A stretch of DNA of 34,522 nt from Deltaproteobacteria bacterium CG11_big_fil_rev_8_21_14_0_20_42_23 (GTDB taxonomy: Bacteria; UBA10199; 2-02-FULL-44-16). Location: positions 19,373-53,894 of the forward strand of contig PCXC01000037.1 of the NCBI GenBank assembly GCA_002796345.1, written 5' to 3'. The translations under genes were made by a program, and so were the position numbers. This document shows positions 158 through 34,522 of the stretch, piece after piece. Positions within the stretch are counted from its first letter, which is position 1; the number at the start of each line of letters is the position of its first letter. Below the pieces are notes generated by a model. That model did not search any database, was not told where the DNA came from, and was given only the letters and a program-made list of their open reading frames with translations.

Positions 158-158
158 C

Positions 159-7449: not shown

Positions 7450-7848
7450 CTAATTACAAAGATATTTTATCACGTCCCCGATATTATCTCCGGCAATCCA
7501 AATTTTATTTGCATTTCCATTGACCGTGACATTGCTGATCGTGCCAGTAGACACAATATGGAGCCCCTCATTGGTCCCAATTGCATTCGTGATCGTTGAA
7601 CCGCCGATGTAAATATTTCCTTGGTTGTTGATTCCCGATTGAAAGGTACATGATGTTGCTTGTAAATCTGGCATTTGCTGACGATCAAGTGCACCAGCTG
7701 CAGCAATGGTAATAGAGCCATTGTTCAAATCCAAAGCCCACTCGAAAATAGGTGCCGCAGTTCTATTTTCTAGTGGGTAGTTAATAACTGCAAAGGCAGG
7801 AAGGGATAAAAATGTAAATATCAGAAAAGTAATGAGCTTTTTCTTCAT
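7450..7848 (-). CDS. Small beta-rich protein with signal peptide
   Basis: 132 residues from the ATG at 7848; an 11-codon-longer frame is open upstream but would bury the signal. MKKKLITFLIFTFLSLPAFA is a clear Sec signal with an AFA cleavage site after residue 20. The mature part is about 112 residues, Gly/Asn/Ile-rich and repetitive (NIYIGGSTITNAIGTNEG), with NGNANKIWIAGDNIGD near the end. This resembles small accessory domains found next to phage fibres. It is the first gene after the 27-bp repeat gap, and eight bases separate it from the second signal-peptide gene. Function unknown. Confidence 0.65.
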   Translation of the reverse strand: MKKKLITFLIFTFLSLPAFAVINYPLENRTAAPIFEWALDLNNGSITIAAAGALDRQQMPDLQATSCTFQSGINNQGNIYIGGSTITNAIGTNEGLHIVSTGTISNVTVNGNANKIWIAGDNIGDVIKYLCN

Positions 7849-7898
7849 GGTCGGAGCCCCTTTTTGAGGAAAGTGTGACACAAAAAGAAAAAGCTAAA

Positions 7899-7925
7899 AA
7901 TAAACTAATGGGTGTTAGGATTTAA
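7899..7925. repeat. 27-bp dispersed direct repeat, copy 1 (candidate late regulatory element)
   Basis: Exactly repeated at 21688-21714 in the same orientation. The core CTAATGGGTGTTAG is an interrupted inverted repeat (CTAA...TTAG). It fills most of the 53-base gap between the fibre gene ending at 7935 and the signal-peptide gene starting at 7848, within a region otherwise almost devoid of intergenic DNA. Confidence 0.7.
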
Positions 7926-7934
7926 GTTGTAGTC

Positions 7935-8702
7935 CTATGCTAACTGTCCGGTACAGATAATTGAAATGTCGTATGCCATATTGTCATCAGAATTTACGCA
8001 GTTCACGTTACCATTATTATCATCTTCATGGATAGTTACATTCACATCAATACTTCCAGCTTGAACATTAGAGTAAGAAATAATTTGTTGTCTATACCTA
8101 CTAGCTATTACATCTCGTACCCCTAATGCTGTTCCTTGAATAATATAATTCGCATCTGCGAAATCATTGTTAAAAACTATATTGAACGTCATACCAGAGT
8201 TATTATCATCAGTCACAAGAGTAGGAACGCCAGCAATATTATTGGAAGATAACACTACGATCGTTCCACCATTAACATCAGCTGTGAATCTTATTCTTGA
8301 TGTACCAACTTGAAGGGAATCGACATAGTTTTTTGTAGCTGCATCTTGAGCAACAGCAGGGTCTAGAACATTATTGATACGATTATTACCCATTGAAGCT
8401 GGACCGGTAAAAGCACGTGCGCCACTTGCCAAAATATATTGAGGATGGTCATCATCGGCCAAACCACCGAGTTGACCGTGATCGAAAAGACTTTCATTGA
8501 TGATTTTGAGTGATATGGCAGCATCAAGTTGGGTGAAGATATTCCCATTGAGCGCAATACCTTGATTTTCAATAACACTTACAATTTCTTCTTGTACGTT
8601 ATTATGCCATGTTTTTTCAAATAGCGTTCCTGGCAAACCACCTTGAGCATCTTTGTCTTCAAATAAATTGGCGACATGACCATCAGCATCTACACGTTTC
8701 AT
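7935..8702 (-). CDS. Tail fibre protein (N-terminal baseplate-attachment and collar motifs)
   Basis: 255 residues. The first 80 (LFEKTWHNNVQEEIVSVIEN, then QLDAAI) match the usual start of tail fibre proteins encoded just after gp48 in Mu-like phages. DDDHPQYILASGARAFTG (about 84-101) and a MGNNRINNV...AATKNYVDS segment (about 104-129) are recurrent fibre motifs. The C-terminal 120 residues are a beta-rich domain. GGGGG precedes the ATG. Role: connects baseplate to receptor-binding parts. Confidence 0.85.
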   Translation of the reverse strand: MKRVDADGHVANLFEDKDAQGGLPGTLFEKTWHNNVQEEIVSVIENQGIALNGNIFTQLDAAISLKIINESLFDHGQLGGLADDDHPQYILASGARAFTGPASMGNNRINNVLDPAVAQDAATKNYVDSLQVGTSRIRFTADVNGGTIVVLSSNNIAGVPTLVTDDNNSGMTFNIVFNNDFADANYIIQGTALGVRDVIASRYRQQIISYSNVQAGSIDVNVTIHEDDNNGNVNCVNSDDNMAYDISIICTGQLA

Positions 8703-8704
8703 TT

Positions 8705-9265
8705 TTAACCCCCAAAATTAAACACAACAAAAGTATGAGCCGGTTTCAGTTCTTGAATTTTACAGAGCATATATAAATCGTCTGGTTGCACTGGTAGATT
8801 GATTTCAATCACAAACATACACTCAAGTCCGGTTGAGCGAGCATCACCACACCTTGCTTCACCACACCGAGAAACACGACATTCAATAATTTCAAATTCA
8901 GCCTCATCAAATCCAAAACCTTCCAGTAAATCCTCAAAAAACTGTCTGCTTTGCCTATTATTGTTTGCTAGCTTCTGTTTAATCTGATCTCTTCTCTGGT
9001 CTAATGTCTGACTTTCAGGATCATCTACACAAGCATCAGGTAAACCTAAATATCTCTCCCAATCACTAATAAGCTCAAGCGTACGATTTGGATCAGCTTC
9101 TACTAGGAGTTGAATATAACGATCTTCAACTCTGCAAAACTCAACTGCCATTGAATCAGTGAGAAGCGAAATCGCGCTTCCATCTTCCTTATTCCAAGCT
9201 TTTCCGCGTGGAAGCAGTTTTCGCATTAGCGCCTTAAATTTTTGTAATCCTACAGATTCTGCCAT
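8705..9265 (-). CDS. Mu gp48-like tail/baseplate protein (DUF2313, YmfQ family)
   Basis: 186 residues. The N-terminus LLPRGKAWNKEDGS (about 17-30), the central ERYLGLPDACVDDP (about 70-83), and QRRDQIKQKL followed by a Cys-rich insertion are characteristic of the DUF2313 family, encoded after baseplate J in Mu-like phages. The Cys-rich part (CRVSRCGEARCGDARSTGLEC) is typical of the family and may be structural. It overlaps the upstream gene by 16 bases. Likely a baseplate component that positions fibres. Confidence 0.88.
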   Translation of the reverse strand: MAESVGLQKFKALMRKLLPRGKAWNKEDGSAISLLTDSMAVEFCRVEDRYIQLLVEADPNRTLELISDWERYLGLPDACVDDPESQTLDQRRDQIKQKLANNNRQSRQFFEDLLEGFGFDEAEFEIIECRVSRCGEARCGDARSTGLECMFVIEINLPVQPDDLYMLCKIQELKPAHTFVVFNFGG

Positions 9266-10725
9266 GTAATCGTCCCTAAAACTGCTATTTCACCTGCATT
9301 TGGTTGAAAATTTACTACAGGTGCGAGCAAGTTGTGATCCTCTTCACCAACAGCTAAACTAATCGCCTCATTGATTCTACTGAGTAAAATTGTTCCATCA
9401 TGAATCAAATTTGGAGTTTTGAATGTTCCAACAACCTGTGCATCTCGCGCTATCAAGTCCTTTAATTCTTGTGTAACGGCATCTCGAACAGCTTGCGTGT
9501 TTGGCTGAAGTGCTATCATAAAATCCAGTGGTGCAGGTGTGGGAGGAAAAACGATCACATCAGCAGTAATTGGTCGAACGGTATCAATGTAATCTTGAAC
9601 TTCTTGAACCTTTGCAGCGTCAGGAATAATATTTGTTTCACCATCTTCAACCACGAATACTGCAACCGTTCCCAAACCAAACCAACCTGGACCAACCCAA
9701 ACTCGCGTAATACCCGCAATACTTAAACCCCATGCAACATAATCTCGAACGGCTCCACCAGCGGGGGGCTGTTGAATTCTCTGGAGCAAACGCTCTCTCA
9801 ACTGTTCTATTGTTTCTTGATCTTCTGCCTCTTGAATGGTGTCATTAACTGTCACGTTTGCATCAACTCCAACGATAGGAGCAACAAGCTGTAAGATACT
9901 GCCATCAACAACATTTCCATTTTCCGCTGCAACTACGGCTGTAGCCTCTACGATAATTTCTCCTTCGATGACTTCATCAACACCTTGTTGAGTGACATTG
10001 ATAATGAAAAAGGTATCACCTGGATTTGCATCTTCTCGTACTCCATTTTGTGCATCGGTAATCGTAAGAACATTGGCTATAGCATTCGCAGACCAAGCAT
10101 CATCTACATCCAGGACGGCCGCAATTTTTGCTGCAACTGTCGCATCATCATCATTTGCATTGATTGTGGTAATTTCAACATTTCTATCTTGTTGTAGTGC
10201 CTGAACTGGTGCGGGCGTTCCTGAGTTATCAATATCAATCCAAACACCCGCAGAACCATCAGCATCATAAAGAATAAAGTAGGTTCCATCTAAAGAGCCA
10301 CCAACGTCAGCTAATGTTGTAAAGTCGGTGATTTCTTGTGCGCCAACAACGCCAGCAGGGATTTCTCCTTCCGCATCTGTTTGATAATCAACATTATCAG
10401 AACGTCTTATGATTGTATTTTGTGGAATGATACTCCCTACATCTCCTGTGAATTTCACCTCAACACGGGCAAAGGTTGCAGCTTTTTTTGAAAGTCCCCA
10501 CACACTTGCCCAACGTTCCAAAAACTCATCTTCGGCTGTATCTGGTATGAGTTGTCGTGAAAGCCAATCAAGATGACCATGAAGCATATGAGAAACACCT
10601 GCTATTGCTTTAGCAATAGCATCTTCCACGCTACGTCGTAAAATTGATGCTATCCCAAGTCCTTCACGAATATCATTTTGAACTCGTGTCACAATTGACG
10701 GTAACAATGGTCTGTTAAACGGCAT
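9250..10725 (-). CDS. Baseplate protein J-like (Mu gp47 family)
   Basis: 491 residues. The N-terminus MPFNRPLLPSIVTRVQNDIR is the standard start of Mu gp47. DWLSRQLIPDTAEDEFLERW (about 52-71) and the later RLLQRIQQPPAGGAVRDYVAWG block (about 317-340) with IAGITRVWV are diagnostic of Baseplate_J. The middle, about residues 130-250, is an inserted repetitive beta segment rich in D, N, A and V. Role: wedge/baseplate spokes of the contractile tail. It overlaps both neighbours by about 10-16 bases. Confidence 0.93.
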   Translation of the reverse strand: MPFNRPLLPSIVTRVQNDIREGLGIASILRRSVEDAIAKAIAGVSHMLHGHLDWLSRQLIPDTAEDEFLERWASVWGLSKKAATFARVEVKFTGDVGSIIPQNTIIRRSDNVDYQTDAEGEIPAGVVGAQEITDFTTLADVGGSLDGTYFILYDADGSAGVWIDIDNSGTPAPVQALQQDRNVEITTINANDDDATVAAKIAAVLDVDDAWSANAIANVLTITDAQNGVREDANPGDTFFIINVTQQGVDEVIEGEIIVEATAVVAAENGNVVDGSILQLVAPIVGVDANVTVNDTIQEAEDQETIEQLRERLLQRIQQPPAGGAVRDYVAWGLSIAGITRVWVGPGWFGLGTVAVFVVEDGETNIIPDAAKVQEVQDYIDTVRPITADVIVFPPTPAPLDFMIALQPNTQAVRDAVTQELKDLIARDAQVVGTFKTPNLIHDGTILLSRINEAISLAVGEEDHNLLAPVVNFQPNAGEIAVLGTITWQNL

Positions 10726-11188
10726 TGATTATCACCCCATCTTTCTCAAAATTCCAAAGCACTTCATATCGTTCAGCATCACCAGAAGGCCGAGTGATGT
10801 TAATATTCAGACAAATGATTTCTCGTTCAGGATAGCGAGCAACAACTTCCACATTAGATGCAACACCATCCTCAATCATCCACTCAAGGCTTTTTCTTGC
10901 AAATTGTTCAAAGTCATTAAGAGTTGGTTGCGTTTGCTTATTTCGTTCAAGAATCCAGAGTTTTGAGCCAATTTCATCGCCTTCAACTTGTGAGATCATA
11001 TCTCCCCACCAGCCACGTTTATCATCATGACCAAAAGGAAGCTCATTCTCCTCAGCTCGTTGATCGGTAAAAAGTGAAATGAGTACGGCCGTTCTCAAAC
11101 CATCTTCCAATTTCAAGCCAGAACTCAGAACGTCAAGGTCAATGACAACCTGATTGTTTATATATAACGATAGTCCTATATCACTCAT
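10715..11188 (-). CDS. Mu gp46-like baseplate protein (GP46 family)
   Basis: 157 residues. LRTAVLISLFTDQRAEENEL (about 31-50), then GWWGD (about 59-63) and GSKLWILERNKQT (about 74-86), are characteristic of the Mu gp46 / phage GP46 family, corresponding to the gpW/gp25-like baseplate proteins. It is encoded between the spike and baseplate J, as in Mu. The stop and start of the neighbouring genes overlap or nearly touch. Confidence 0.88.
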   Translation of the reverse strand: MSDIGLSLYINNQVVIDLDVLSSGLKLEDGLRTAVLISLFTDQRAEENELPFGHDDKRGWWGDMISQVEGDEIGSKLWILERNKQTQPTLNDFEQFARKSLEWMIEDGVASNVEVVARYPEREIICLNINITRPSGDAERYEVLWNFEKDGVIINAV

Positions 11189-11190
11189 AA

Positions 11191-11886
11191 TTATAAATTC
11201 TGGTTTGGAACACCTGTTTGTCCACCACTATCACCAGGATGATTGTGAGCATTGAAGGTGTTTTTAATTTCCTGTAATCCCGTACCAACATTTTGACTTT
11301 CAATATCTTGCACAGCTACTATTCCTCCAAAGAAGAAGGCATTGATACCTCCGCCTCCTCCAAACCCTGAACTCAAACCACCACTTATTCCAAACGATGG
11401 CGTTGTATATGTCGTCCCAAGAGGTGCCACCGCTGTAATTTGTTGAGCATTTATTTCATAGTCATTCGTATTTATTTCAACCTTTTGCGATGCATTGATC
11501 CGGAAAGTCGCAGTATTGACTTCAATCGTCTTTCCTCGTTTTAACTTTATAAAATCTCCCTCATCTGAATAAAGCGCCACTTCACCTGGTTGTAAGCTTT
11601 TGAGGCGATAGCGTCTGTCATCAACAGCAACAATTAAACCGTGCTCTCTATTCCCAGAGGGGAAAACAACCACTCCTTCAGCACCAACAAATGGAACACT
11701 CGTAAATCCGTAATTTTGAAACCTTTCAACTTTGTCTTTTATTTCATCAGCAAACAACTCCATCTTCATGAGCTGCATTTTTGTTGTATCATTCACAGCG
11801 CTTACTACAGCTCTGCTAACCATCATCGCAATGCGATTTCTCAGTGGCTGAACAGCTCTTCTAAAAAAATCCAAGAGGTCTGCCAT
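11191..11886 (-). CDS. Baseplate spike/assembly protein (Mu gp45, gpV-like)
   Basis: About 231 residues from the ATG overlapping the upstream stop (TAATG, AAGGA six bases upstream). An ATG at 11901 would add five residues. PFVGAEGVVVFPSGNREHGL (about 71-90), an OB-fold-like region, and a repetitive beta-helical tail (NTATFRINASQKVEINTNDY) are gpV features. The C-terminal NAHNHPGD contains an HxH motif like the iron-binding tip of P2-type spikes. It punctures the outer membrane during tail contraction. Confidence 0.87.
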   Translation of the reverse strand: MADLLDFFRRAVQPLRNRIAMMVSRAVVSAVNDTTKMQLMKMELFADEIKDKVERFQNYGFTSVPFVGAEGVVVFPSGNREHGLIVAVDDRRYRLKSLQPGEVALYSDEGDFIKLKRGKTIEVNTATFRINASQKVEINTNDYEINAQQITAVAPLGTTYTTPSFGISGGLSSGFGGGGGINAFFFGGIVAVQDIESQNVGTGLQEIKNTFNAHNHPGDSGGQTGVPNQNL

Positions 11887-12992
11887 TACGAATCCTTCCA
11901 TCCTAACTTTTCGATAGGATCATTCTCTTTTTCAATAACTGACTCAGGTTCAAACGCATCTTGTCGTCCCAAGCTCATTTGGCTTACTGTTCCTCCACTG
12001 TTTGATTTTGTGAACGTAATATTGTTCATCAGCATTTCGCTGGTGATACCCAACATTTTACAATCAACATCAACCAGTTCATTCACCTTCCAAAGTGTTC
12101 CATCTCTTTTTTGCCAACCAGCTACTTCAATATCCAGCGTAACACCTTCAGCAGCTCTAACACTTGCCTCCCATTCTGCACGTTTTTGTGACTCTGTTGT
12201 ATTGAGAGATGTCTCACCAATGACAAGCAATGGTCGATAACGAACAATTCCTGTATCTTGTGCAGTACCACGAGAACTGGCTGCATTTTTTCCATGAAAT
12301 TCATCCGTCCCCGCTGTCTGACCTTTTATAAAATAATTACTAAACCTTTTTGAATTATCATAGTTCACCGAACCTTTTAAAATATTCACACCCTGAACAA
12401 GAGCTGTATTACTTTTTCTTGAACCTCTTCTCGTAAGAACAAGGTCTCCATTTTCATCTGAAATAAGCAATACGCCCCGTATTTTTGCAGCCCGTGATAA
12501 CGCTTCAAAAACTGACTCTCCTTGCTTAATAGTAAATGGGTCAAAAGCAGCGCCAATATCTGTTTCCACTTTCAATTGAATACCAAAAGGAGAAAGAAAT
12601 CGTTTTGCTAACTCTTGTAGGTTTAATCCTCGAAATTCACCTGGGGGATCAATCACAGAGCAATCAACTAAGTCACCTGTCTTATCTCTTCCCGTAAGTG
12701 TAATAGTTCTGGTGCTTGCATCAAAATTTGCATTGAGGCTGTCAATATACCCATTGATGATCTGTTGCTTTCCAACATAAACCCCAACATTCTTACCTGG
12801 CTTTAAGGGCCACTGGGCATTTTCTTGCCTCCAACGATCAGAAATATTAACTGAAAAACTTCCAGAGATTTGAGTCATACTTTTTGCTACACTGACATTT
12901 TCCCATGCGTGGTACACTCTGTTGTCAATGACAAGTGAAACTGAATTTTCAATCTCACGTCCGTCTTGTATAATTGCTGGGATGTTAACCAT
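11886..12992 (-). CDS. Tail hub protein (Mu gp44/P, late control D family)
   Basis: 368 residues. The start MVNIPAIIQDGREIENSVSL, VYHAWENVSVAKSMTQISGS (about 28-47), LKPGKNVGVYVGKQQIINGY (about 63-82) and TLTGRDKTGDLVDCSV (about 97-112) follow Mu gpP closely. The middle holds an OB/LysM-like region, QGESVFEALSRAAKIRGVLL. It forms the trimeric hub between spike and tail tube. It shares bases with both neighbours (13-base and TAATG-type overlaps), indicating coupled translation. Confidence 0.9.
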   Translation of the reverse strand: MVNIPAIIQDGREIENSVSLVIDNRVYHAWENVSVAKSMTQISGSFSVNISDRWRQENAQWPLKPGKNVGVYVGKQQIINGYIDSLNANFDASTRTITLTGRDKTGDLVDCSVIDPPGEFRGLNLQELAKRFLSPFGIQLKVETDIGAAFDPFTIKQGESVFEALSRAAKIRGVLLISDENGDLVLTRRGSRKSNTALVQGVNILKGSVNYDNSKRFSNYFIKGQTAGTDEFHGKNAASSRGTAQDTGIVRYRPLLVIGETSLNTTESQKRAEWEASVRAAEGVTLDIEVAGWQKRDGTLWKVNELVDVDCKMLGITSEMLMNNITFTKSNSGGTVSQMSLGRQDAFEPESVIEKENDPIEKLGWKDS

Positions 12993-14223
12993 GAGCCAAC
13001 ACCTCCAATGATGACCTTCCAGGGATAAAGGCAGGATTCCTCACTTTGTTTCGATCAATAATGTCTTGCTCTAAGTCACGAGATTCATAAATATCATAGA
13101 CAAGAATCAACGAAGGTGTAGTGATGTCGGTTGTAAATTCTGCGATACTTGCAAGACTTGTTCCTGGATTTGGCATAACTGCTCGCAGCAATGCCTTTAA
13201 GTCACTAAGAGCAACAAAATAATCATCATCAACAACCGAATTCATTTCACGTTCAAGAATGGCCACAATATTCTGCCTTGCTTCTTCAGCTTCATTCAGT
13301 GATTTAAAACCATCTCTCAGAAGATTTACATTTCCCTCAGAAACCTGTTTAGCCTCACGAATAAATGATTTTGCAGCCATAGCCACAGCCGTCTGACGAA
13401 TAAGACTCCTCAAAGCCTCTCTATTTTGAGCTTCACGAACTCTATTTGGGGTAAGTGTAGGAATTTCAGCAAAATCATCCCCGAATGAATCAAGCGAAAG
13501 ATAAAAGTCGAGAGCACTTTTTTTCCTATCAGTTGTATCGGCTACGTTTTGTATCTCTGTAGAAAGTGAGTCTGACAATGAGCCATTTTGTGTTACAAGA
13601 GAGTCAACATTTCGTTCAATGTTTGTGAGATTTTGTTGTACTGTAGATGCAAAATCCAAAGGCGAATGAATTGCCTTAAAGCTTCCCCTGATTAAATCAA
13701 GTGAACTCACAATCGTGCTTGATGCAGAAGACACCATATAACCAGGGGCTAGAACTAAATTATAGGAATCTGAGAACACCCTTTTTGAAAGGTCTAAAAC
13801 AGCCTCGGCTTTATCAATAATGTTTTGACTGTTATTGAGAATTGTTGAGGGGAATTGAAATTTTCCCGCCTCTACAAAACTGATATTGAATGTTGCAATC
13901 CTTCCTTCTCGTGTATCTTCTTTCAAAGAAAAACCGGTACAAACAACATTGAGGTTCCCAAGATAAGGATGAACAAGAATACCTTCACCACGCTTCTCAC
14001 ATGCTCTTATCAGGGCATCACGTGTTTGAAAGTAATTATCTCCAAGGATGTGACATTGAATTGAATACTCACGCGCCTCACGACCCATGTCTTCTGTGTA
14101 GGGCTCGTCACGTTCGGGAAACTGATGCGTAGTTGTCCGCCTACCACCAGAGAAATCATGGCTATCAATTAAAAATTGAATTCCTCGAAATGAAGCTGGT
14201 CGTAATTGATCTGTCCAAACCAT
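12985..14223 (-). CDS. Mu gpN-like tail/DNA circularisation N-terminal domain protein
   Basis: 412 residues. The first 130 (WTDQLRPASFRGIQFLIDSH, then PERDEPYTEDMGREAREYSI) are the DNA_circ_N domain that begins Mu gpN, a distal tail protein linking tube to baseplate. The remainder is helical with Asp/Ser-rich segments. It lies between the tape measure and the hub gene, as in Mu. Seven bases separate it from the tape-measure stop. Confidence 0.9.
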   Translation of the reverse strand: MVWTDQLRPASFRGIQFLIDSHDFSGGRRTTTHQFPERDEPYTEDMGREAREYSIQCHILGDNYFQTRDALIRACEKRGEGILVHPYLGNLNVVCTGFSLKEDTREGRIATFNISFVEAGKFQFPSTILNNSQNIIDKAEAVLDLSKRVFSDSYNLVLAPGYMVSSASSTIVSSLDLIRGSFKAIHSPLDFASTVQQNLTNIERNVDSLVTQNGSLSDSLSTEIQNVADTTDRKKSALDFYLSLDSFGDDFAEIPTLTPNRVREAQNREALRSLIRQTAVAMAAKSFIREAKQVSEGNVNLLRDGFKSLNEAEEARQNIVAILEREMNSVVDDDYFVALSDLKALLRAVMPNPGTSLASIAEFTTDITTPSLILVYDIYESRDLEQDIIDRNKVRNPAFIPGRSSLEVLAHG

Positions 14224-14230
14224 AGTTTAC

Positions 14231-15802
14231 CTATTGCGGAAGCGCAGCCAAGCCCACGCTCAAATCTAAAATTCCATCGTTCTGAATAGGATTGATCCGT
14301 GTTCCTGGTGGAATATTCGTAAAATCAACCCCCACTCTCGCATTGTTAGTTGTTGTTCTGTTGATAATATTACTACCGATTGCACTCGCTTGAGGTGTGC
14401 TTGGTTGCTGATTATTCCCAGCAAAAGCATTCCCAGTAAGAAAATTAAAACCACTTGCAATTCCAGAGCCTATTGTCCGAAGAAATGAACCGATAGGGCC
14501 ATCCCAAAGATCAGTGAAAAAACTTTTCACTTGTTCCCAATTTTTAACTACGAGACCAGCAGCGCTGATAAGCCAACCAATGGGAGTTATGAATTGAATC
14601 AACTTTCCTATTGGAGAATCCCAAAGTTTTATGAATGTCTGCTTGACCTTCTCCCAATTTTTAATCACCAAGAAAGCAATGGCAGCTAATGCAGCAACAG
14701 AAGCTATTACAAGCCATATTCCATTTGTCTTTAAGAGAAAAAAAAGAGACTTCATAACAGAAATAATTGTTACAAGAGCGCTTCCAAGCTGAACAATTCC
14801 AACAATAAGTTTACCAGCAATGAGAACACTAAGAGCAACTCCTGCTATTTTTAAAAACTTGAAAGCTTGTGATAAGATGGGAACAATATCTCTGAGTTTC
14901 AATATGACTTCTTTTAGTTTTTCTACAAACTCAACTACCTTTTCTCTGATAAGAGCTTTATTTTGTTTCGTCCATTCTATCATTCTCTTTACAATATCAG
15001 TAACAATAGGAATGAGTTCTGTTCCAAGCAAAATTTTAAAACCACTAAAAACTGTTGTCAGTCTAAAAATCGTATCGTTAAAATCTTCAGCTTTTGTCGT
15101 TGCTTCTTTATCGAGTAAAAATCCAAGCTCTTCAAGTTCAACACCCTGGGCCTTTAAAGCATCTGACCCTTGATTGAGAAGATTGATAAGTTTCGTTCCT
15201 GCTCTTCCAAAAAGTTCTTGAGCAGCAGTTGTTTTTGCAATCCCATCTGGCATTTGTGAAAAAGCATCGGCTACAGCTAAAACCCCCTCATTCATATTTT
15301 TGATCTTACTTGGATCAATTCCTATTCTTTCAAAACCTCTCTTGGCAGTAACAAGACCACTGTTTGCATCGCTGATAACACGAGCAAAGCGGACGACTCC
15401 TTTATTGAAATCTTCCTGATTGGCTCCGGCAAGTTTTGCAGAAAATGCATATTTTTGGAGTTCTTCTACAGTCAAGCCAACCCTTGCTGAAGTTTTGGCA
15501 AGATCATCAGCAAAGTTTGCAGTACTTTTTGTGATTGCTAAAATACCAGCACCGGCAGCCCCAAGAGCAACACCAACTGGCAATAAAGCGCTTCTAATGT
15601 TGCCTAGACCTTGTTTAAATTGATTCGTTGCAGAATTGAGCCTGTTGAGCTGACTCTTTGCTTTGAGAGCAAAGACCTTAAAGCTTCCCTGAACGCGCTT
15701 TATAGGGTCATTTAAAGCCTTAATATTTCTTCCAATTGACTGAAGTGGACTTGAAATTTTGTCAATTGCAGATAATTTTATATTGAAAGGAAAATCAGCC
15801 AC
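14231..15802 (-). CDS. Tail tape measure protein
   Basis: 523 residues, started by GTG at 15802 (GAGGAG about ten bases upstream), overlapping the frameshifted chaperone stop. The N-terminal helix region, a hydrophobic stretch near 73-92 (LLPVGVALGAAGAGILAI), the conserved SARVGLTVEELQKYAFSAKL segment (about 104-123) and a strongly hydrophobic block near 320-385 are typical. Two tandem units, KNWEKVKQTFIKLWDSPIG and KNWEQVKSFFTDLWDGPIG, occur about 40 residues apart. At about 1.5 angstrom per residue the tail would be near 75-80 nm. It sets tail length and helps DNA cross the inner membrane. Confidence 0.92.
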   Translation of the reverse strand: MADFPFNIKLSAIDKISSPLQSIGRNIKALNDPIKRVQGSFKVFALKAKSQLNRLNSATNQFKQGLGNIRSALLPVGVALGAAGAGILAITKSTANFADDLAKTSARVGLTVEELQKYAFSAKLAGANQEDFNKGVVRFARVISDANSGLVTAKRGFERIGIDPSKIKNMNEGVLAVADAFSQMPDGIAKTTAAQELFGRAGTKLINLLNQGSDALKAQGVELEELGFLLDKEATTKAEDFNDTIFRLTTVFSGFKILLGTELIPIVTDIVKRMIEWTKQNKALIREKVVEFVEKLKEVILKLRDIVPILSQAFKFLKIAGVALSVLIAGKLIVGIVQLGSALVTIISVMKSLFFLLKTNGIWLVIASVAALAAIAFLVIKNWEKVKQTFIKLWDSPIGKLIQFITPIGWLISAAGLVVKNWEQVKSFFTDLWDGPIGSFLRTIGSGIASGFNFLTGNAFAGNNQQPSTPQASAIGSNIINRTTTNNARVGVDFTNIPPGTRINPIQNDGILDLSVGLAALPQ

Positions 15803-16192
15803 GTTTTTTCATCTCCTCGTGTATTTCTTCGCACCGATCAATCCAAAAAAGCAGGTCATCTGCCGTAATGTTATCAAGGTCAGAAAGCGAAAAATGAAAT
15901 GTGTACGCGAGAAGACCTAGCCACTGTTTCCAGTCTTTTGGCCACGCGCTAAAAAATTTCCGATGACCTCCGACATCTTTTGCAAATCAACTAAGTCTAA
16001 TTCATCAACCACTTTGTCAGGCACTTCTACTAAATCCTTCATTAAGTCGATAAAATCTCCTGTATTCATATTATCAGGATTGAAGCGACGCATATCTTTT
16101 GCTTTTGGCCTTCGTATAGTTAGCTTTTTATAAACCTCTGAGCCAAACTCTATCGGGTAATCTAATTCTATTGTTGCCTCTTTTGAACTCAT
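15795..16192 (-). CDS. Tail assembly chaperone, -1 frameshift fusion (P2 E+E'-like)
   Basis: Programmed slippage at the heptamer at 15950-15956 would join the first 81 residues of the chaperone to a 51-residue extension in the -1 frame (SAWPKDWKQWLGLLAYTFHF...ending EMKKRG). The total is about 132 residues. The extension is open from before the slip site to TGA at 15795-15797, is Trp-rich and clearly protein-like, and ends beside the tape-measure start. In P2 and Mu-like phages the analogous frameshifted product binds the tape measure and recruits tail tube protein. No independent start with a good ribosome-binding site is seen for the extension. Confidence 0.8.
15917..16192 (-). CDS. Tail assembly chaperone E (unshifted product)
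   Basis: 91 residues of the Phage_TAC/gpE type. IELDYPIEFGSEVYKKLTIR (about 8-27) followed by RPKAKDM is the signature, and VDLQKMSEVIGNFL (about 68-81) ends the shared part just before the slip site. The short 0-frame product ends ARGQKTGNSG. It lies directly downstream of the tail tube gene and upstream of the tape measure, the invariant place for this chaperone. Confidence 0.88.
   Translation of the reverse strand: MSSKEATIELDYPIEFGSEVYKKLTIRRPKAKDMRRFNPDNMNTGDFIDLMKDLVEVPDKVVDELDLVDLQKMSEVIGNFLARGQKTGNSG
15950..15956 (-). other. -1 ribosomal frameshift slippery site T TTT TTA
   Basis: Read on the minus strand, the 0-frame codons are AAT TTT TTA GCG, giving the classic X XXY YYZ heptamer T TTT TTA. 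It lies 31 bases upstream of the 0-frame stop at 15917-15919. Slipping back one base leads into a 51-codon open frame. P2 uses the near-identical T TTT TTG in the same gene pair. I did not model a downstream stimulatory structure. Confidence 0.85.
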
Positions 16193-16200
16193 AATTACCT

Positions 16201-16569
16201 CTAAGCTGTAATTTCTTCAGCAGATGTTCCTTCAAAACGTACTTCGATTTCACCTTCTTCAGTCGTAATATTCCCATCACCAGCATACCAAGCTTCACGC
16301 AGGAGAATGATTTTGCTATTCGCAAGACTAAGCGTCACCGTTACATCACTTAAAGCAAGAAGAGCATTCTTTACATCAAGATCAACATCATCGGTAAAAG
16401 CTCCTTCAATGAAAGGAACCTGGGGCATTTCTTTATAACCATGAACGCTATCAGAACCTACTACCGCTTCTTTTTTGGGATGACCAAGATTATAGGTAAA
16501 ATTTCCTTTCGCTCTAAATTTTGTTCCACCTATAACTAAGGCAATCAAACCACCTCGACGACGAGCCAT
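16201..16569 (-). CDS. Tail tube protein (Mu gp40/M-like)
   Basis: 122 residues. GGTKFRAKGNFTYNLGHPKK (about 14-33), then PQVPFIEGAFTDD (about 50-62) and the AGDGNITTEEGEIEVRFEG end, identify the Mu gpM tail tube family. It forms the inner tube of the contractile tail and lies directly after the sheath gene. Confidence 0.9.
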   Translation of the reverse strand: MARRRGGLIALVIGGTKFRAKGNFTYNLGHPKKEAVVGSDSVHGYKEMPQVPFIEGAFTDDVDLDVKNALLALSDVTVTLSLANSKIILLREAWYAGDGNITTEEGEIEVRFEGTSAEEITA

Positions 16570-16581
16570 ATTTTATCTCCT

Positions 16582-18054
16582 TTAGAGTAAAAATTGAATT
16601 TGTACTCCGGTGACACGTAATTGGTTAATCAGATCAGGTGGCAAGAGGATGTCGAGCCGATCAGGATCACCAACATTTCTTTCAACGATTAAATCACGCT
16701 TAAATTGGTCAATATTTTCTACCAAACCCAGTTCTTCCCATTGTCTAAACTTTGCGACAGCTTCAGCCTTTGCAATTTTAGGTGTTACAATTGCCTGTCC
16801 AGGGCCATAATTCACACCGTCATTTGCAAGTTTATGATTCGGAAATTTCAGCAAGAAAGTATTCCTAAAATCAAAACGAAGATATGAAAGCGTGAGCACT
16901 GTATTCACATTCAAGAAACTAATATCTGGTGCACCAAAGACATTCGTTTTGAATGTTGTAATCATCCGTTCAATACGGACATTTCCACCATCATCAACGA
17001 AATAAGTACTGATTCCATTTTCAAGGAGTTGATTACGTTCCTGGCGTGTAAACTGCTCTGTTTCTTTTGGCGGAAGCAGTTTTAATAATTGCAAAGTCTG
17101 AAAGGGTCGAGCAGGGTCTCGCTGTGCTGCAAGTGCAATTCGTCCAGCCATTGCACCAACCCATTCCCAAGGGGAGTTTGGTCCTTCTATGGTCATAATA
17201 GAAACAAGATGACTGTTTCTGCTATTCCCAAGTGCTGTAAGACCACCAAAAATATCTCGTTTAGCACTAAGCGCTATGCCTTCATTTTGACGTAATGGCC
17301 CCCAACGATCAGTCAACTCAGTTTCCATTGCCGTTAAGTTCGCTGCATCTGTGTATGGGAAAGCAATAATATTATACTGTGTTTCTGCAAGTAGGTTGAT
17401 AACAAGACTAACATCAGGATTGCCTGCACCAACAGCCATGTCAACAATATCAGCAGTAAGACCAGCAGGAAGTTTTTCACCATCAAAATAATTTAAACGA
17501 ATATCAATTTCATTTCCAAGCTCACCACCATTTTTTGCGGTGAGATCAACTATCGTATCGTCAACTCCGTTTACAACAGCAGTAACAACAGCGTCGGCAT
17601 CAGCAGCAATAGCAGCTTGAAGCGCAGCAGCAACGTCAGTTGGGGTATCGGTTGTAGCAACTGAAACACGATAGCGACGACCTGCTATATAAACATTCAA
17701 AAGACCTGCTTCAGTTGGAACACCGCCAATATCTATTTGCCAAACAGCTTGAATAGCAGCTCCATCATCTGCAAGAGGTACAGCCAAAAGTTCCGTAGAT
17801 TTGTTATTATCTAAAATTTTCTCACACATTTGAGCAAGATGCGAACCTGGCCCATATTTTTTTCTAGCTTGTCCTGCACTCGTAATATGAGAAAACGTCA
17901 AAGCTGCATCAGTTCCAGCAACAAGTTTTTGACCTATAGCGAGAATTTTATAAGGTTGAATAGAAGGCCCTTGCTGTGCATTTGTATTATCAAATTCAAC
18001 ATAAACAAATGGCACTCGTTGGTTTGCTGGTATCTCGTTAAAGCTAATAGTCAT
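16582..18054 (-). CDS. Tail sheath protein (Mu gpL-like)
   Basis: 490 residues. NQRVPFVYVEFDNTNAQQGP (about 11-30), YKILAIGQKL (about 35-44) and a C-terminal block with SYLRFDFRNTFLLKFPNHKL (about 394-413) are Mu gpL hallmarks. About residues 130-200 form a D/A/V-rich inserted domain. The sheath contracts to drive the spike into the cell, so the phage is a myovirus. It is the longest gene of the tail cluster after the tape measure. Confidence 0.93.
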   Translation of the reverse strand: MTISFNEIPANQRVPFVYVEFDNTNAQQGPSIQPYKILAIGQKLVAGTDAALTFSHITSAGQARKKYGPGSHLAQMCEKILDNNKSTELLAVPLADDGAAIQAVWQIDIGGVPTEAGLLNVYIAGRRYRVSVATTDTPTDVAAALQAAIAADADAVVTAVVNGVDDTIVDLTAKNGGELGNEIDIRLNYFDGEKLPAGLTADIVDMAVGAGNPDVSLVINLLAETQYNIIAFPYTDAANLTAMETELTDRWGPLRQNEGIALSAKRDIFGGLTALGNSRNSHLVSIMTIEGPNSPWEWVGAMAGRIALAAQRDPARPFQTLQLLKLLPPKETEQFTRQERNQLLENGISTYFVDDGGNVRIERMITTFKTNVFGAPDISFLNVNTVLTLSYLRFDFRNTFLLKFPNHKLANDGVNYGPGQAIVTPKIAKAEAVAKFRQWEELGLVENIDQFKRDLIVERNVGDPDRLDILLPPDLINQLRVTGVQIQFLL

Positions 18055-18071
18055 AGCTTTTCTCCCTTATC

Positions 18072-18308
18072 TTATTTAGATTTTTCTGTGCTCTTTTTTG
18101 ATTCTTTTACTTGCACGCTTGAAGGTTTTTTACTTTTATCTTCTTCAACAAGGACACAATCACCGTCTTTCAGGCGACGTGCCCAAAATTTATCCGTAAT
18201 ATCAACTTCAATACCATCAGCAGGAATATGCTTTCCTGTCTTAGGATCAGGTATCCTATAATTTGGACTAAAAGGTTTCAGTTTTACTTTTGTTGATTTG
18301 TTTTTCAT
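18072..18308 (-). CDS. DUF2635 protein (Mu gp38-like)
   Basis: 78 residues. The conserved core RIPDPKTGKHIPADGIEVDI (about 18-37) followed by FWARRLKDGDCV is DUF2635, encoded just before the sheath in Mu-like phages. Both ends are Lys/Ser-rich and probably disordered. Exact role unknown. Confidence 0.87.
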   Translation of the reverse strand: MKNKSTKVKLKPFSPNYRIPDPKTGKHIPADGIEVDITDKFWARRLKDGDCVLVEEDKSKKPSSVQVKESKKSTEKSK

Positions 18309-18320
18309 GTAAAAACCCCT

Positions 18321-18881
18321 TTATAAGTTAATTTCATCTTCCGCATCAATATTGCCATCAGGATCACTATCGTGATGTCCTATGTCATAGTCTATATTTA
18401 CTCCCGCTAAATCTGTGATATTTCCGTGCTGTATTTGATTATCCTGTACTTTCGGAAGATCGGTTACGTATTGACAGATCAACGTTATCTTTGTGCTTCC
18501 TAACTTCCTTGCTCCATCTTCCCGGAAATCCATATCGATATTCACAAGAAGTATTCTATCACACGTATCATTTAATGTTTCATCAACGAATAAAAGTGAT
18601 TCAACCTGGTCAGCAATTGTATCGAGCGAGTCTGTTAGTGTTTTTTCATCGTTTGCACCTGCAACAATCTCAATATTTACGAATAAGTCTCGCTTGAATG
18701 AGAGAGGTGCTCGATCAAACTCTTCTACTGGCTCTGATTTAATCGTCACATTGATTGCTGGAAGATTTAAACCATCGTCCCAATGAGCACTTGCTTGATT
18801 TGAAAGAACATTTACTCCTGCATCAGTATTATTGAGGAGAGTGTTAACGATAGCTTCTCGAATCAACTGGCGCTGATGCAT
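18321..18881 (-). CDS. Mu gp37-like head-tail/tail terminator family protein
   Basis: 186 residues. The N-terminal QRQLIREAIVNTLLNNTDAG and the alternating strand/helix middle with PAINVTIKSEPVEEF (about 36-50) resemble the gp37/tail-terminator-like family, located upstream of gp38. The C-terminus (DYDIGHHDSDPDGNIDAEDE) is a highly acidic extension. It shares one base with the upstream gene. It probably caps the tail or joins it to the head. Confidence 0.65.
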   Translation of the reverse strand: MHQRQLIREAIVNTLLNNTDAGVNVLSNQASAHWDDGLNLPAINVTIKSEPVEEFDRAPLSFKRDLFVNIEIVAGANDEKTLTDSLDTIADQVESLLFVDETLNDTCDRILLVNIDMDFREDGARKLGSTKITLICQYVTDLPKVQDNQIQHGNITDLAGVNIDYDIGHHDSDPDGNIDAEDEINL

Positions 18882-19210
18882 TATAATACCTCATGAAGGA
18901 ATAAACTTGCTCCCCCTTGTCCATCTTCTTGTGAATCGTGAACCAAATATTTTGCTCCACTCGCAAGAATCTCAACCTGATCTCCTTTTCTTGGACTTGC
19001 TGGTAAGTCAGACAACTTTACCCCAATTCGAGGAGCATTTGAGCTAATCACCATTTCTGTGTCAGGATCAACATGCTCAAACTTTAAATCAAAGACCGCT
19101 TTTATATCTATCGGTATACCTGTAACCTGAGAGGTATACCGCACATCTTCACCCATGGTAGGTATAGCAATATCGAGCACCTTTCCAAAAAGTTCCTTGA
19201 AGCTCGCCAT
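18881..19210 (-). CDS. Head-tail joining protein (lambda FII-like)
   Basis: 109 residues, beta-rich. ISSNAPRIGVKLSDLPASPR (about 55-74) followed by KGDQVEI and the C-terminal SLFLHEVL match the Phage_attach/gpFII family of small head-completion proteins that form the tail-docking ring. It stands between the decoration-protein gene and the gp37-like gene, matching a head-to-tail transition. Confidence 0.7.
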   Translation of the reverse strand: MASFKELFGKVLDIAIPTMGEDVRYTSQVTGIPIDIKAVFDLKFEHVDPDTEMVISSNAPRIGVKLSDLPASPRKGDQVEILASGAKYLVHDSQEDGQGGASLFLHEVL

Positions 19211-19219
19211 ACATTTTTA

Positions 19220-19555
19220 TTATCCTTTCAAACGACATTGAACTGTTGCTGCACCAACACCAGCAGCAGCAAAACACATTCCAGCAAGAACATTTGTACC
19301 AGCGCCATCTGCAAGAGTCAATTCACCTGCACCAGCATCCCAATAAAGATTGTCGCCCTGTACCATATCGTTATCAGTAGTCTTTGGAAGTGAAAAAACT
19401 CCTCCTAGACGCAGTGTTCCTTGAGCATCTGCTGCAATATTTACGCTTGCAACTCCAAGCCGAGTTACAACGAGGACAGGATCACCACTGGCAATAGCAC
19501 CAGGGCCTGGATTTGTGTATGCCATTGCATCGCCTGGTTGAATAAAGTTTTTCAT
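19220..19555 (-). CDS. Capsid decoration (cement) protein, DUF2190
   Basis: About 111 residues from the ATG at 19555 (GGAG nine bases upstream; an ATG at 19561 is too close to it). KNFIQPGDAMAYTNPGPGAI (about 2-21), GTLRLGGVFSLPK (about 46-58) and the A/G-rich AAAGVGAATVQCRLKG end are the DUF2190 pattern. It likely trimerises on the capsid surface as a lambda gpD analogue. It follows the capsid gene by 29 bases. Confidence 0.88.
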   Translation of the reverse strand: MKNFIQPGDAMAYTNPGPGAIASGDPVLVVTRLGVASVNIAADAQGTLRLGGVFSLPKTTDNDMVQGDNLYWDAGAGELTLADGAGTNVLAGMCFAAAGVGAATVQCRLKG

Positions 19556-19584
19556 AATCATTTCTCCTTTATAAACTTAATTTA

Positions 19585-21069
19585 CTAACCTGCGTTTAGA
19601 TAAAGACCTCTGTGGTCAATGACTTTTGCAGCACCATCATAAGTTGCTCTGATTTCAACACCGTCGGTATCAAATCCAGTACGAGTCGTAATTCTTGGCC
19701 CACGCTGACCATCGAGTGTACCCAACTCAACAATGTCAAGCTGACTTACATCTGCGGTGAGATACCAGGCTGTTAATGAGACAGCATCAAGACGTGGTTC
19801 CGCAGCAAATTGGAGTCGACCAAAGAAAGGATTTACAGCGGTTTGGTCGGTGGCTCCCATTTGAGCAGCTAAAACCCCAGAAACTAATTGCTGAATCTCT
19901 GTTTCTAAAGCAGCAGGGCCAAATACCCATCGACCTTCTACATTGATAGGAGCGCCATTCAATCCCGTTTGAACTCTCATTGCAGCTCGCGCAATCCCAA
20001 GAGTTCCAACATTCGGTGCACCAACTTCACCAATACCTGCTAAGTTTGCATGAACAACGCTGAAAAGGGGTTGGTTGTCAGCCATATTCGCATTATTGGT
20101 AATCTCCGCCCATACAAGATCACTTTCAAGATCACCAGTCGCTCGACCAAACAAGAAAGGAATTCTCGTAAATGCATCCAGGTCATCATTCACAATTACT
20201 TTTCGAGTAATGCTGACGATTTTGCTGTAGGTTTTTGCAGCATACTTTTCAGCACCTTCACCAATTGTTCCTCTTTTTACCTCTCCATCATCAAGCACTT
20301 CTTCAAGACGTGGAGCATCTCCGAGCTGAACACGGCTCACTTGTTTGAAATCTTGAAGTGCTATACGACGCGTAAATGGGGCAAAAGTCTGAGGTGCAGA
20401 CTCATAACCATTGCGAAGCGTCTTAGTTGCAATATTTTCAAGAATAAGTGGAAAGTCATCAGTTGTATGAAAACCATCTCGATAAGCTTTTCGTGAGCTG
20501 CCCAGCGCACATTCAGCAATTTCGCTATGTGACATTCCGGCAGTTCTTACACCATCTTGTTCAAGACATTTACGGGCAATCTCAACAAGACTCATGTGAA
20601 CCCATTCACGACCTTCATCTTTAAGCTCATGCTTCTCAGGCATGGCACGATGCAAAAGGGCTGATTCAATCCCTACTTTTCGATAATGTTTATAATCCAT
20701 GTCAGAAACCTCCGCTCTCACGTTATTGGTATGGGCCTTTCGTTGCTGTGCAGAAAGCTCCTTCACGATCAACTTTCTTGCATCATTCATTGATGTATTT
20801 TTGTTTATCAGATTCTCAGCAAATTCATAAGGTAAGTTTGCACTTCTTACCGCATTGAATATATCGATTGCGTCTTTTGCAGTAAGGGAACGTTCATCGC
20901 TGTCATCGTCATTGCTTTCATCAGATGATTCTGAATTTGCATCGTCTTTAGATTCACTAGATTCAGCAACTTCTTCTCCTTGAGTTTCCTCTTTTTCTTC
21001 TTCCTGAGATTCTTTTGTCTTTTCTTCCTCAAGTGTGTCTTCACGCTTCTTGGGCTTGAGTTTGTTCAT
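19585..21069 (-). CDS. Major capsid protein with delta/scaffold-like region, from internal start
   Basis: An in-frame ATG (codon 189 of the fusion) has GAGGAG six bases upstream, the best ribosome-binding site in the gene. Translation from here gives about 494 residues: an acidic, low-complexity region (about 1-65), a helical segment to about 125, then the capsid domain (EVSDMDYKHYRKVGIESALL onward). It would make capsid protein in excess over protease. Mu and lambda use nested starts for their scaffold. The internal start is an inference from sequence. Confidence 0.65.
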   Translation of the reverse strand: MNKLKPKKREDTLEEEKTKESQEEEKEETQGEEVAESSESKDDANSESSDESNDDDSDERSLTAKDAIDIFNAVRSANLPYEFAENLINKNTSMNDARKLIVKELSAQQRKAHTNNVRAEVSDMDYKHYRKVGIESALLHRAMPEKHELKDEGREWVHMSLVEIARKCLEQDGVRTAGMSHSEIAECALGSSRKAYRDGFHTTDDFPLILENIATKTLRNGYESAPQTFAPFTRRIALQDFKQVSRVQLGDAPRLEEVLDDGEVKRGTIGEGAEKYAAKTYSKIVSITRKVIVNDDLDAFTRIPFLFGRATGDLESDLVWAEITNNANMADNQPLFSVVHANLAGIGEVGAPNVGTLGIARAAMRVQTGLNGAPINVEGRWVFGPAALETEIQQLVSGVLAAQMGATDQTAVNPFFGRLQFAAEPRLDAVSLTAWYLTADVSQLDIVELGTLDGQRGPRITTRTGFDTDGVEIRATYDGAAKVIDHRGLYLNAG

Positions 21070-21633
21070 GTTTCTCTCCTCTTCGTTTGCCAAAAGAAAC
21101 TGGCATTCATTTTTTTCTAGTTTTCTAAATTTTGCCTCGTTGTCAGCAGGAATAGGAACTGCCGAAATTTCAAAAGGTTCCCAGTCAACTGCCCTTAAAA
21201 CTTTGATGCCTTCTTCAGCATCCAGCTCTTTAAGTTCTTTAAATTTATAAACTCTGTAACCAACACTGACGTTTCTAATTATTCCATTTTTGACATCATT
21301 AAAAATAGGTTGGACTTCTTCTCTATCTGAGAAACGAACAGTAGCTGTTCCTTTTTTTCCATCAACACTTGCTGATTCAACCACTCCAATGACATCCCCA
21401 AGTGAAAAACTTTTGTGACTATTTAACAGCGGAGCACCATTGTTCAGACGTTCTAGCCTCACATGAGATGGATTCATGGAAAGTTCTTCCATGAAAGGTT
21501 CGTCAAAAAAAGGCTCCCGTCGCACACGAGACTTCGTTGTAAACACAACTTCCATCGTCCTTTTTTCTTCATCAACAGAAGAAGGCTGCACTTGGGCTCT
21601 TAAATTAAGAGACTGGATATTTTTCTTTTTCAT
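19585..21633 (-). CDS. Prohead protease-major capsid fusion protein
   Basis: 682 residues. Residues 1-175 are an S78/Mu gpI-type prohead protease with H73 (LLNSHKSF), S123 (IIRNVSVGYRVYKF) and the WEPFEISAVPIPAD end (151-164). A strongly acidic linker follows (about 200-250), then a helical delta-like region and the capsid domain (about 310-682) with the AWYLTADVSQLDIVELGTLD block and the GLYLNAG end. Such protease-capsid fusions are known in Mu-like prophages. The ATG at 21633 has no Shine-Dalgarno; instead an 18-base hairpin (21640-21657) lies just upstream, so full-length product may be rare. Confidence 0.9.
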   Translation of the reverse strand: MKKKNIQSLNLRAQVQPSSVDEEKRTMEVVFTTKSRVRREPFFDEPFMEELSMNPSHVRLERLNNGAPLLNSHKSFSLGDVIGVVESASVDGKKGTATVRFSDREEVQPIFNDVKNGIIRNVSVGYRVYKFKELKELDAEEGIKVLRAVDWEPFEISAVPIPADNEAKFRKLEKNECQFLLANEEERNMNKLKPKKREDTLEEEKTKESQEEEKEETQGEEVAESSESKDDANSESSDESNDDDSDERSLTAKDAIDIFNAVRSANLPYEFAENLINKNTSMNDARKLIVKELSAQQRKAHTNNVRAEVSDMDYKHYRKVGIESALLHRAMPEKHELKDEGREWVHMSLVEIARKCLEQDGVRTAGMSHSEIAECALGSSRKAYRDGFHTTDDFPLILENIATKTLRNGYESAPQTFAPFTRRIALQDFKQVSRVQLGDAPRLEEVLDDGEVKRGTIGEGAEKYAAKTYSKIVSITRKVIVNDDLDAFTRIPFLFGRATGDLESDLVWAEITNNANMADNQPLFSVVHANLAGIGEVGAPNVGTLGIARAAMRVQTGLNGAPINVEGRWVFGPAALETEIQQLVSGVLAAQMGATDQTAVNPFFGRLQFAAEPRLDAVSLTAWYLTADVSQLDIVELGTLDGQRGPRITTRTGFDTDGVEIRATYDGAAKVIDHRGLYLNAG

Positions 21634-21639
21634 AAATTT

Positions 21640-21657
21640 GCCAAATAATATTTTGGC
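21640..21657. other. Inverted repeat in the capsid gene leader
   Basis: The arms GCCAAA and TTTGGC are separated by six A/T bases, ending seven bases from the capsid-fusion ATG. No U-tract follows, so it is not a normal intrinsic terminator. It may replace or hide a ribosome-binding site. Confidence 0.45.
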
Positions 21658-21687
21658 TTGATTATGGAGCAGAGAGAAAAATCACAC

Positions 21688-21714
21688 AATAAACTAATGG
21701 GTGTTAGGATTTAA
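21688..21714. repeat. 27-bp dispersed direct repeat, copy 2 (candidate late regulatory element)
   Basis: Identical over 27 bases to 7899-7925. It lies three bases after the portal stop and about 55 bases before the capsid-fusion ATG. This 83-base gap is the largest in the late gene block. Confidence 0.7.
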
Positions 21715-21716
21715 CT

Positions 21717-23198
21717 TTAAGGAGAACTTTCACTTGAAGTTAATTGAAGATCACCATTTTGCTTTGTTTTTCTTGGATCAGAATCAAAGATAAGCTTTCG
21801 CGCATCAATCATTTCGGCATCGCCTTTAATTTCATCAAGTAGTTCAGTAGGATCAAATCCATACATACGAACCACTTCACTATAGCTCATAAAACCTGAT
21901 CGGACTGCATCAACGAGGGCTGGTATTTCTTTTGTTGGGTCAACCATTTCTCTCTTGGGTGGAGTCCAAGAAATGCTTACGCCATCAAGATTTTTTCCAG
22001 TTGACAGGATCAGTACTTCTTTAAACCATGAAAACATTGGATTCAAAAATTGAGGCATAAGTATATTACAGCGCCATGAATCAATATTACGTTGAAATTT
22101 AAGCCATCCCATACGCGCACTTGAGAAGTTTACTTCAGAGTAATCCCCTGTCAAAACTTCGTAGGTAACACCTAGACCTGTGGCTATCGCATGGAGATTC
22201 ACGGATAAATACTCTTTATAATTTTCAACTGTTGGTGGGCTCGAAAAAGTGACTGTTTTCCCTGGAGGTAAATGCTCCCATTGACCAGGCTGAACTCTTT
22301 CACCTATCTTGTTACTTACTCCATTTGTAGGCGGATCAACAGGATCAGTTATGTCATGAACAATGCCCGTAAAACACGCTGCAATTTTTTGCCTTACCAG
22401 TTGAGCATCCTCATATTCATCAAGATCACGAAGTCGAACAATACAAGGTGCTAACCAAGGAATCCCTCTGATTTGACCACTTCGCTCAACCTTATAAATA
22501 TGAAGCACCTCGTCCGCAGGTACACGAACAAGCGTTGTGTTTCCCGTCCCATCTCCTGGATGTTCTTGAAACATCCAATACGCTGTTCTTCGTCCAAGAG
22601 GGTCAAATTCAATACCTTGTTTAATCAGTGGCTTTGTTTCTTGTTCTTTCGTGTAATCAACAAAATCACCTTCTAAAATTTGAATTTGAAAGGGAACGGG
22701 AAGACTGTCATCATCAACAAACCTCTTTCTGATAATAAGTTCTCCACCTTCGGCAATTGTTTTCATCACTACATTCTGAAGTCCATAAAGATTATGACGA
22801 CCCTCAAAATCACATGCCTTTGTTAGCGCCCATTGCTTCCAAATATTTTCAACATCTGCTTGAAGATTTTTCTTGTCTGCTTTTATTTGCCCGATAATTC
22901 CTTTGCCAATAGTTTCCCCTGCAATGGCATTGATTCCAGCTCGCGCATAAGGATTATTACGAACAAGGTCTCGTGAACGTTGACGAAGTCGGCTTAGAGA
23001 AAGCTTTGCCTCTTGATTTACTGAAGTATCTGACGTTATCCAACCCTCGACACGTCTACCAGTTGAGGCGCCTTCATATCTTCGCTTCTCAAGGTCTTGC
23101 AGAGCTAACCGATACCCTTGTCTTTTCAATCTTGCTTGAGGTGAGAAAAAACCAATAATTTTATCCAAGAAGTTTAGGTGTTGTTTTTCTTTCGCCAT
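21717..23198 (-). CDS. Portal protein (lambda gpB family)
   Basis: About 493 residues from ATG 23198, whose start MAKEKQHLNFLDKIIGFFSP matches the family; longer frames to 23288 run into the gpW-like gene. RSRDLVRNNPYARAGINAIA (about 57-76), IWKQWALTKACDFEGR (about 110-125) and LLTGDYSEVNFSSARMGWLK (about 340-360) are lambda-type portal motifs. It forms the dodecameric DNA gate at the capsid vertex. It follows the gpW-like gene and is followed by the 27-bp repeat. Confidence 0.93.
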   Translation of the reverse strand: MAKEKQHLNFLDKIIGFFSPQARLKRQGYRLALQDLEKRRYEGASTGRRVEGWITSDTSVNQEAKLSLSRLRQRSRDLVRNNPYARAGINAIAGETIGKGIIGQIKADKKNLQADVENIWKQWALTKACDFEGRHNLYGLQNVVMKTIAEGGELIIRKRFVDDDSLPVPFQIQILEGDFVDYTKEQETKPLIKQGIEFDPLGRRTAYWMFQEHPGDGTGNTTLVRVPADEVLHIYKVERSGQIRGIPWLAPCIVRLRDLDEYEDAQLVRQKIAACFTGIVHDITDPVDPPTNGVSNKIGERVQPGQWEHLPPGKTVTFSSPPTVENYKEYLSVNLHAIATGLGVTYEVLTGDYSEVNFSSARMGWLKFQRNIDSWRCNILMPQFLNPMFSWFKEVLILSTGKNLDGVSISWTPPKREMVDPTKEIPALVDAVRSGFMSYSEVVRMYGFDPTELLDEIKGDAEMIDARKLIFDSDPRKTKQNGDLQLTSSESSP

Positions 23199-23214
23199 AA
23201 TTCTCAATACCTTT

Positions 23215-23430: not shown

Positions 23431-23433
23431 AGC

Positions 23434-32311: not shown

Positions 32312-32324
32312 TTTCTACCCTTTA

Positions 32325-32364: not shown

Positions 32365-32426
32365 CACAATTTTACGTAGTATATTATTGTTGTGATTTTA
32401 ATAGGTTAGGAGTTAATCTGCAATAT

Positions 32427-34485: not shown

Positions 34486-34522
34486 CTGAGAAATCACCCT
34501 TCTCGTCTCTCGTTCTCTTGTC

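Follow-up and report, generated by a model that had tools for sequence, protein, structure and literature searches.

An exact 27-bp repeat in two late intergenic gaps of a prophage as a possible late-activator site

The window, by which we mean the whole stretch of 34,522 nucleotides analysed here, is an integrated temperate phage of ~34.4 kb, sited in a tRNA-Leu gene. A 27-bp element, AATAAACTAATGGGTGTTAGGATTTAA, occurs in it twice, exactly and in the same orientation (7899-7925 and 21688-21714), in the only two late gaps of more than ~40 nt that hold no gene. Since the exact repeat is confined to two real gaps and is followed by in-register similarity downstream, a cis-acting signal is its most economical reading. 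With a probability of about one half, we take the element to act in cis as a DNA site at the head of two late units, most likely one recognised by an activator that the phage encodes or by a modified RNA polymerase.

The late and structural genes all lie on the minus strand, so that the functional reading of the element is its reverse complement, TTAAATCCTAACACCCATTAGTTTATT. Among these genes are the terminase small subunit (phrog_57), the contractile tail sheath (phrog_165), baseplate proteins and an M15-type endolysin, and the match of the protease/capsid fusion to its phrog identifies the head as being of the Mu type. The gene order bears out the division of the late genes that an earlier, sequence-only reading of this DNA had proposed, with terminase, gpW and portal in one section, capsid to fibre in a second, and the signal-peptide, appendage and lysis genes in a third (Table 1). 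The ATG of the signal-peptide gene is at 7847-7849; the listed open reading frame starts at a GTG further upstream. A second signal-peptide gene (6606-7442) has 32%-identical relatives solely on large viral contigs (59-320 kb).

Table 1. Positions of the element, its surroundings and other features in the window
Feature	Position	Strand	Remarks
Copy 1 of the 27-bp element	7899..7925	-	9 nt past fibre stop, 49 nt before signal-peptide ATG
Copy 2 of the 27-bp element	21688..21714	-	2 nt past portal stop, 54 nt before protease-capsid fusion ATG
True intergenic gap with copy 1	7850..7934	-	85 nt
True intergenic gap with copy 2	21634..21716	-	83 nt
40 nt downstream of copy 1	7859..7898	-	21/40 in-register match to copy 2 leader; TTTTTC in common
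40 nt downstream of copy 2	21648..21687	-	In-register match to copy 1 leader
Signal-peptide protein	7450..7849	-	No family; first gene after copy 1
Tail-fibre-like protein	7935..8702	-	phrog_1858 and others; gene before copy 1
Mu-like prohead protease/major capsid fusion	19585..21633	-	phrog_4523, E 3.5e-205; first gene after copy 2
Portal protein	21717..23288	-	phrog_21; gene before copy 2
Orphan 139-aa protein	27392..27811	-	Early/late border; HTH-like by eye, no family
Zinc-ribbon-like protein	31256-31531		No Ogr/Delta/B family match
CI/LexA-like repressor	32427-33080		
tRNA-Leu	76-158		
Att-like repeats, imperfect	103-158 and 34431-34486		
Integrase-like gene	159-1175		Sequence inspection

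The sequence-only reading had described two identical blocks that follow the fibre and portal stop codons and precede the signal-peptide gene and the capsid fusion; their coordinates, exactness, shared orientation and placement were all confirmed, and the two copies lie at nearly equal distances from the next ATG. A third copy with up to three mismatches is absent from the window and from the rest of the 2.03-Mb host genome, and at the same threshold the 27-mer is absent from the 45 other genomes of the host phylum (46 searched, including the host). The 14-bp core, allowing one mismatch, is likewise found at just these two places in the host genome. The longest repeat in 200 windows simulated with a Markov-3 model had a mean length of 15.5 bp and a maximum of 20 bp, as against the 27 bp observed, and shuffles gave an expectation of 0 matches to the 27-mer. 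A chance origin of the exact repeat is excluded. With no further site for the element in 2.03 Mb, a factor that recognises it is probably encoded by the phage.

The earlier description, which placed the element in the two largest gaps between late genes, is correct and can be made more precise: no other late gap of notable size is free of a gene. Together, these two make up 0.6% of the late region. Two other apparent gaps are occupied, the one at 15803-15916 by a gpE-E'-type frame that overlaps and the one at 23289-23433 by a 71-aa gpW-like ORF (23215-23430). Downstream of both copies, the similarity continues in register for ~40 nt, with an identity of 21/40 compared to 10.5 ± 2.9 for random pairs; as a fraction, this is 0.53 in register versus at most 0.47 for other shifts (composition-shuffle p ~0.002). 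An identical 27-bp core next to diverged flanks is as expected for a constrained site.

The same pattern bears on the possibility that the repeat is a relic, a leader or module-boundary sequence of ~70 bp that was copied once and recently, either along with the appendage genes or through recombination, and that is now functionless or mere homology for module exchange. The decay of similarity over 27 + ~40 nt would fit such a copy, as would the lineage-specific occurrence of the element and the inserted genes seen in the portal-capsid gap of relatives, for example G001 (a genome of the phylum) and Vibrio phage 1.055.O. However, a neutral copy should not give 27/27 identity beside flanks that are only about half identical, nor would it account for both copies being at matching start-codon distances and in the only two real gaps. 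We regard a relic as rather unlikely.

For comparison with capsid relatives we considered three genomes of the phylum (G001, G003, G045), 80 viral contig loci and phage records. The 27-bp element was found in none of these capsid relatives; they are distant (42-60% protein identity), which bears on its lack of conservation. In IMG/VR, 16-17-mers that cover the core had no exact match. With a 16-mer in a shifted position there were 30 matches, none of them alike past the word itself and nearly all in long open frames, and these were set aside as chance-like.

The portal-capsid gap is itself retained in relatives, with different content, and in none of the relative stretches tested is it repeated elsewhere in the same stretch. 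Three relatives (L138, L154, L163) have intrinsic-terminator-like hairpins with U tails at this place. One (L118) has a promoter-like TTGCAC/TATAAT, and G001 and G003 have a short motif in common (p ~0.02); both observations favour an activator box, and the motif of the latter pair could not be convincingly extended to the window (p 0.13-0.93). The gap of the window thus resembles those of its relatives in being small and in carrying signal-like sequence, and differs from them in the sequence itself, which in the relatives consists of palindromes, terminators, a promoter or inserted genes (in L099, L105, L115, L127, L133, L137, L143 and the relatives named in this paragraph, G045 included).

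Several features of these gaps are of interest in their own right. In the GC-rich relatives L099, L105, L115, L127, L133, L137 and L143 they hold palindromes with variable arms and the centre CAAWTTG, such as CCGTCAAATTGACGG and CTATCCAATTTGGATAG, which are possibly a conserved operator or RNA hairpin. G001 and Vibrio phage 1.055.O carry cassettes of opposite-strand genes between their portal and capsid genes (L013:13849-16243 and L181:7585-8538), and the portal-capsid gap therefore looks like an insertion hotspot. G003 and G045, which belong to different families of the phylum, have near-identical gaps (L015:4542-4616 and L018 about 6972-7046), which suggests that closely related phages have recently been exchanged between families.

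Among 50,697 phage records, only that of Vibrio phage 1.144.O (MG592515.1, 4329-4356) has a sequence close to the 27-mer, with one gap and one substitution (E 0.06-0.2, the best match of the reversed query having 0.9). This match is non-coding, has the same orientation and lies in a gap of the late region, downstream from the portal gene; the two phages have unrelated terminases. In Vibrio phage 1.144.O the matching sequence supplies the 5' arm and the loop of a strong U-tailed hairpin (L239:4325-4376, z -4.9). We take the resemblance as a lead, not proof. The sequence-only reading had held that absence of conservation in relatives would speak against a signal, and the outcome is divided, with no exact match in relatives among the 46 genomes or in IMG/VR and one weak match in a Vibrio phage.

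Sigma-70 promoters were sought as pairs of -35 and -10 hexamers with 16-18 nt spacing. No coding-strand site with at least 9/12 matches occurs in either gap, the best reaching 8/12 at copy 2 and less than 8/12 at copy 1. At copy 2, a weak -35 hexamer TTGTGT (21684-21689), which overlaps the end of the repeat, is followed after a 17-nt spacer by the -10 hexamer CATAAT (21661-21666), to which the weak -10-like CACACT at copy 1 (7872-7877) corresponds in register. These putative promoter elements are weak at both copies and could be due to chance. A plain sigma-70 promoter was dropped, as none reaches the usual threshold in either gap, and a promoter matrix derived from 135 host upstream regions was discarded after it had drifted to a ribosome-site-like -10. 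The want of a good sigma-70 promoter in both gaps is as expected for activator-dependent late promoters and favours the activator box.

Alternatively, the element may act in RNA. Where the capsid and appendage messages begin, at their 5' end, it could be a signal for processing, for stability or for termination/anti-termination, for instance as the site of a single-strand-specific endonuclease in the AU-rich stretch UUAGUUUAUU. Its position directly after stop codons, its AU-rich composition and the pyrimidine-rich tract that follows are consistent with this, and so are the hairpin that contains the near match in Vibrio phage 1.144.O and the U-tailed hairpins in the portal-capsid gap of the three relatives mentioned above. 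Against it, the coding-strand 27-mer has a fold of 0 kcal/mol, the leader of copy 1 folds more weakly than its shuffles, and that of copy 2 reaches z ~ -1.1 with a partner sequence that is not conserved. No intrinsic terminator (GC-rich hairpin plus U run) was called at either copy, and Rfam gave no match for the element (at E up to 5, just a tRNA and a sub-threshold match elsewhere). An RNA signal appears unlikely to us, but along with the duplicated relic it is a serious competitor of the activator box; an intrinsic terminator was rejected on the folding. Of the roles that the sequence-only reading had put forward (promoter, activator site, processing or termination signal), termination and a plain sigma-70 promoter find no support, and an activator-dependent promoter is possible as far as the sequence goes; its interpretation thus holds in part.

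That reading had also pointed to an interrupted palindrome in the core. The palindrome is present (CTAA-N6-TTAG), but it is ordinary: of the shuffled 27-mers, 38% have arms of at least 4 bp and 19% reach the extended score. We consequently dropped it as evidence for function.

If the element is a late-activator box, copy 2 would head the capsid-to-fibre unit and copy 1 the signal-peptide, appendage and lysis unit. The 27-bp box, which would lie just upstream of, or overlap, a poor -35 region, would be recognised by an activator of the phage or by a modified RNA polymerase. Polymerase would thereby be recruited and would begin transcription ~40-50 bp beyond the centre of the box and 15-30 nt ahead of the start codon. 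Expression of the two late units could then be raised without reliance on transcription that runs through from the packaging genes. The activator, its binding and a start of transcription at the element are all parts of the model that we infer.

The search for a regulator yielded no member of a known family. The Ogr/Delta/B zinc finger (Ogr_Delta, PF04606) had no match in the host genome, with an E. coli control genome positive, and the Mor/C family (PF08765) had none there either. The orphan protein at the early/late border has no relatives, no family and no structural match, and its structure model is poor (mean pLDDT 39.9); it is a candidate regulator by position alone. Several points thus count against the activator box: no relative has the element, no known late activator family is encoded, there are two copies only, none of them ahead of the packaging genes, and the palindrome is not significant. 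A more specific proposal is that an undescribed activator, such as the orphan protein, acts with a new type of 27-bp late box to turn on the capsid unit and the appendage/lysis unit apart from packaging; it is speculative, and we consider it unlikely.

Two well-studied systems offer themselves for comparison. In phage Mu, the C-activated late promoters (lys, I, P, mom) serve several late units, head and lysis blocks among them, and at the head of each unit an activator site lies upstream of non-consensus -35 and -10 hexamers. The window phage is similar in its Mu-type head, and its box, upstream of weak -35/-10 candidates, may be placed in a comparable way; it differs in that the host genome encodes no Mor/C protein and that there are just two sites. 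The Mu C site has the form TTAT-N6-ATAA, which is absent from both gaps within one mismatch. A T stretch has been reported in the spacer of the lys and mom promoters (PMC4461284), and both copies in the window likewise have TTTTTC in the same register.

In P2 and 186, whose late promoters are activated by Ogr, B or Delta, one late unit starts at the head genes (PMC3931495). Like these, the window phage is a contractile-tailed temperate phage with several late units; unlike them, it has the TGT-N12-ACA consensus in neither gap, and the genome encodes no Ogr_Delta protein. It is moderately supported that the 27-bp box would work in the manner of the Mu C or P2 Ogr late promoters while belonging to neither group.

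Mycobacteriophage L5 has stoperators, short oriented repeats in the intergenic regions of its late genes. A prophage-repressor operator or stoperator that silences the late genes in the lysogen would agree with oriented intergenic sites in late genes and with the CI/LexA-like repressor, but in contrast to L5 the window has two copies only and none at the repressor promoter; neither a copy nor a near copy occurs in the repressor/early promoter region (32312-32426), where an operator would be expected, and we consider this explanation very improbable. Hardly credible at all is a direct-repeat recombination site that deletes or circularises the 13.8-kb capsid-to-fibre block, for although the copies have the same orientation and flank a complete module, no recombinase gene was recognised beside either, there are no significant palindromic half-sites, and loss of the block would destroy the phage.

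The window contains a second repeat (21335-21357 and 30403-30425), alike in 22/23 bp, with the sequence CGAACAGTAGCTGTTCC[T/C]TTTTT. It is located inside two unrelated coding genes, both of which encode KKGTATVR at this place. Its core, GAACAGTAGCTGTTC, is a perfect 6-3-6 palindrome that is found exactly at just these two places in the genome. This repeat may be operator-like, or the two peptides may match by chance.

Should the 27-bp element be a late box, it would provide a handle on the timing of capsid versus appendage and lysis functions in a phage of a sparsely sampled bacterial phylum, and its cognate regulator could be found through binding to a 27-bp probe. An undescribed activator acting at this box would, if true, add to Ogr and C a third kind of late switch among contractile-tailed temperate phages. 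If the element is instead a relic, it illustrates the duplication and joining of late modules. In both cases it is something local to one prophage rather than a general mechanism.
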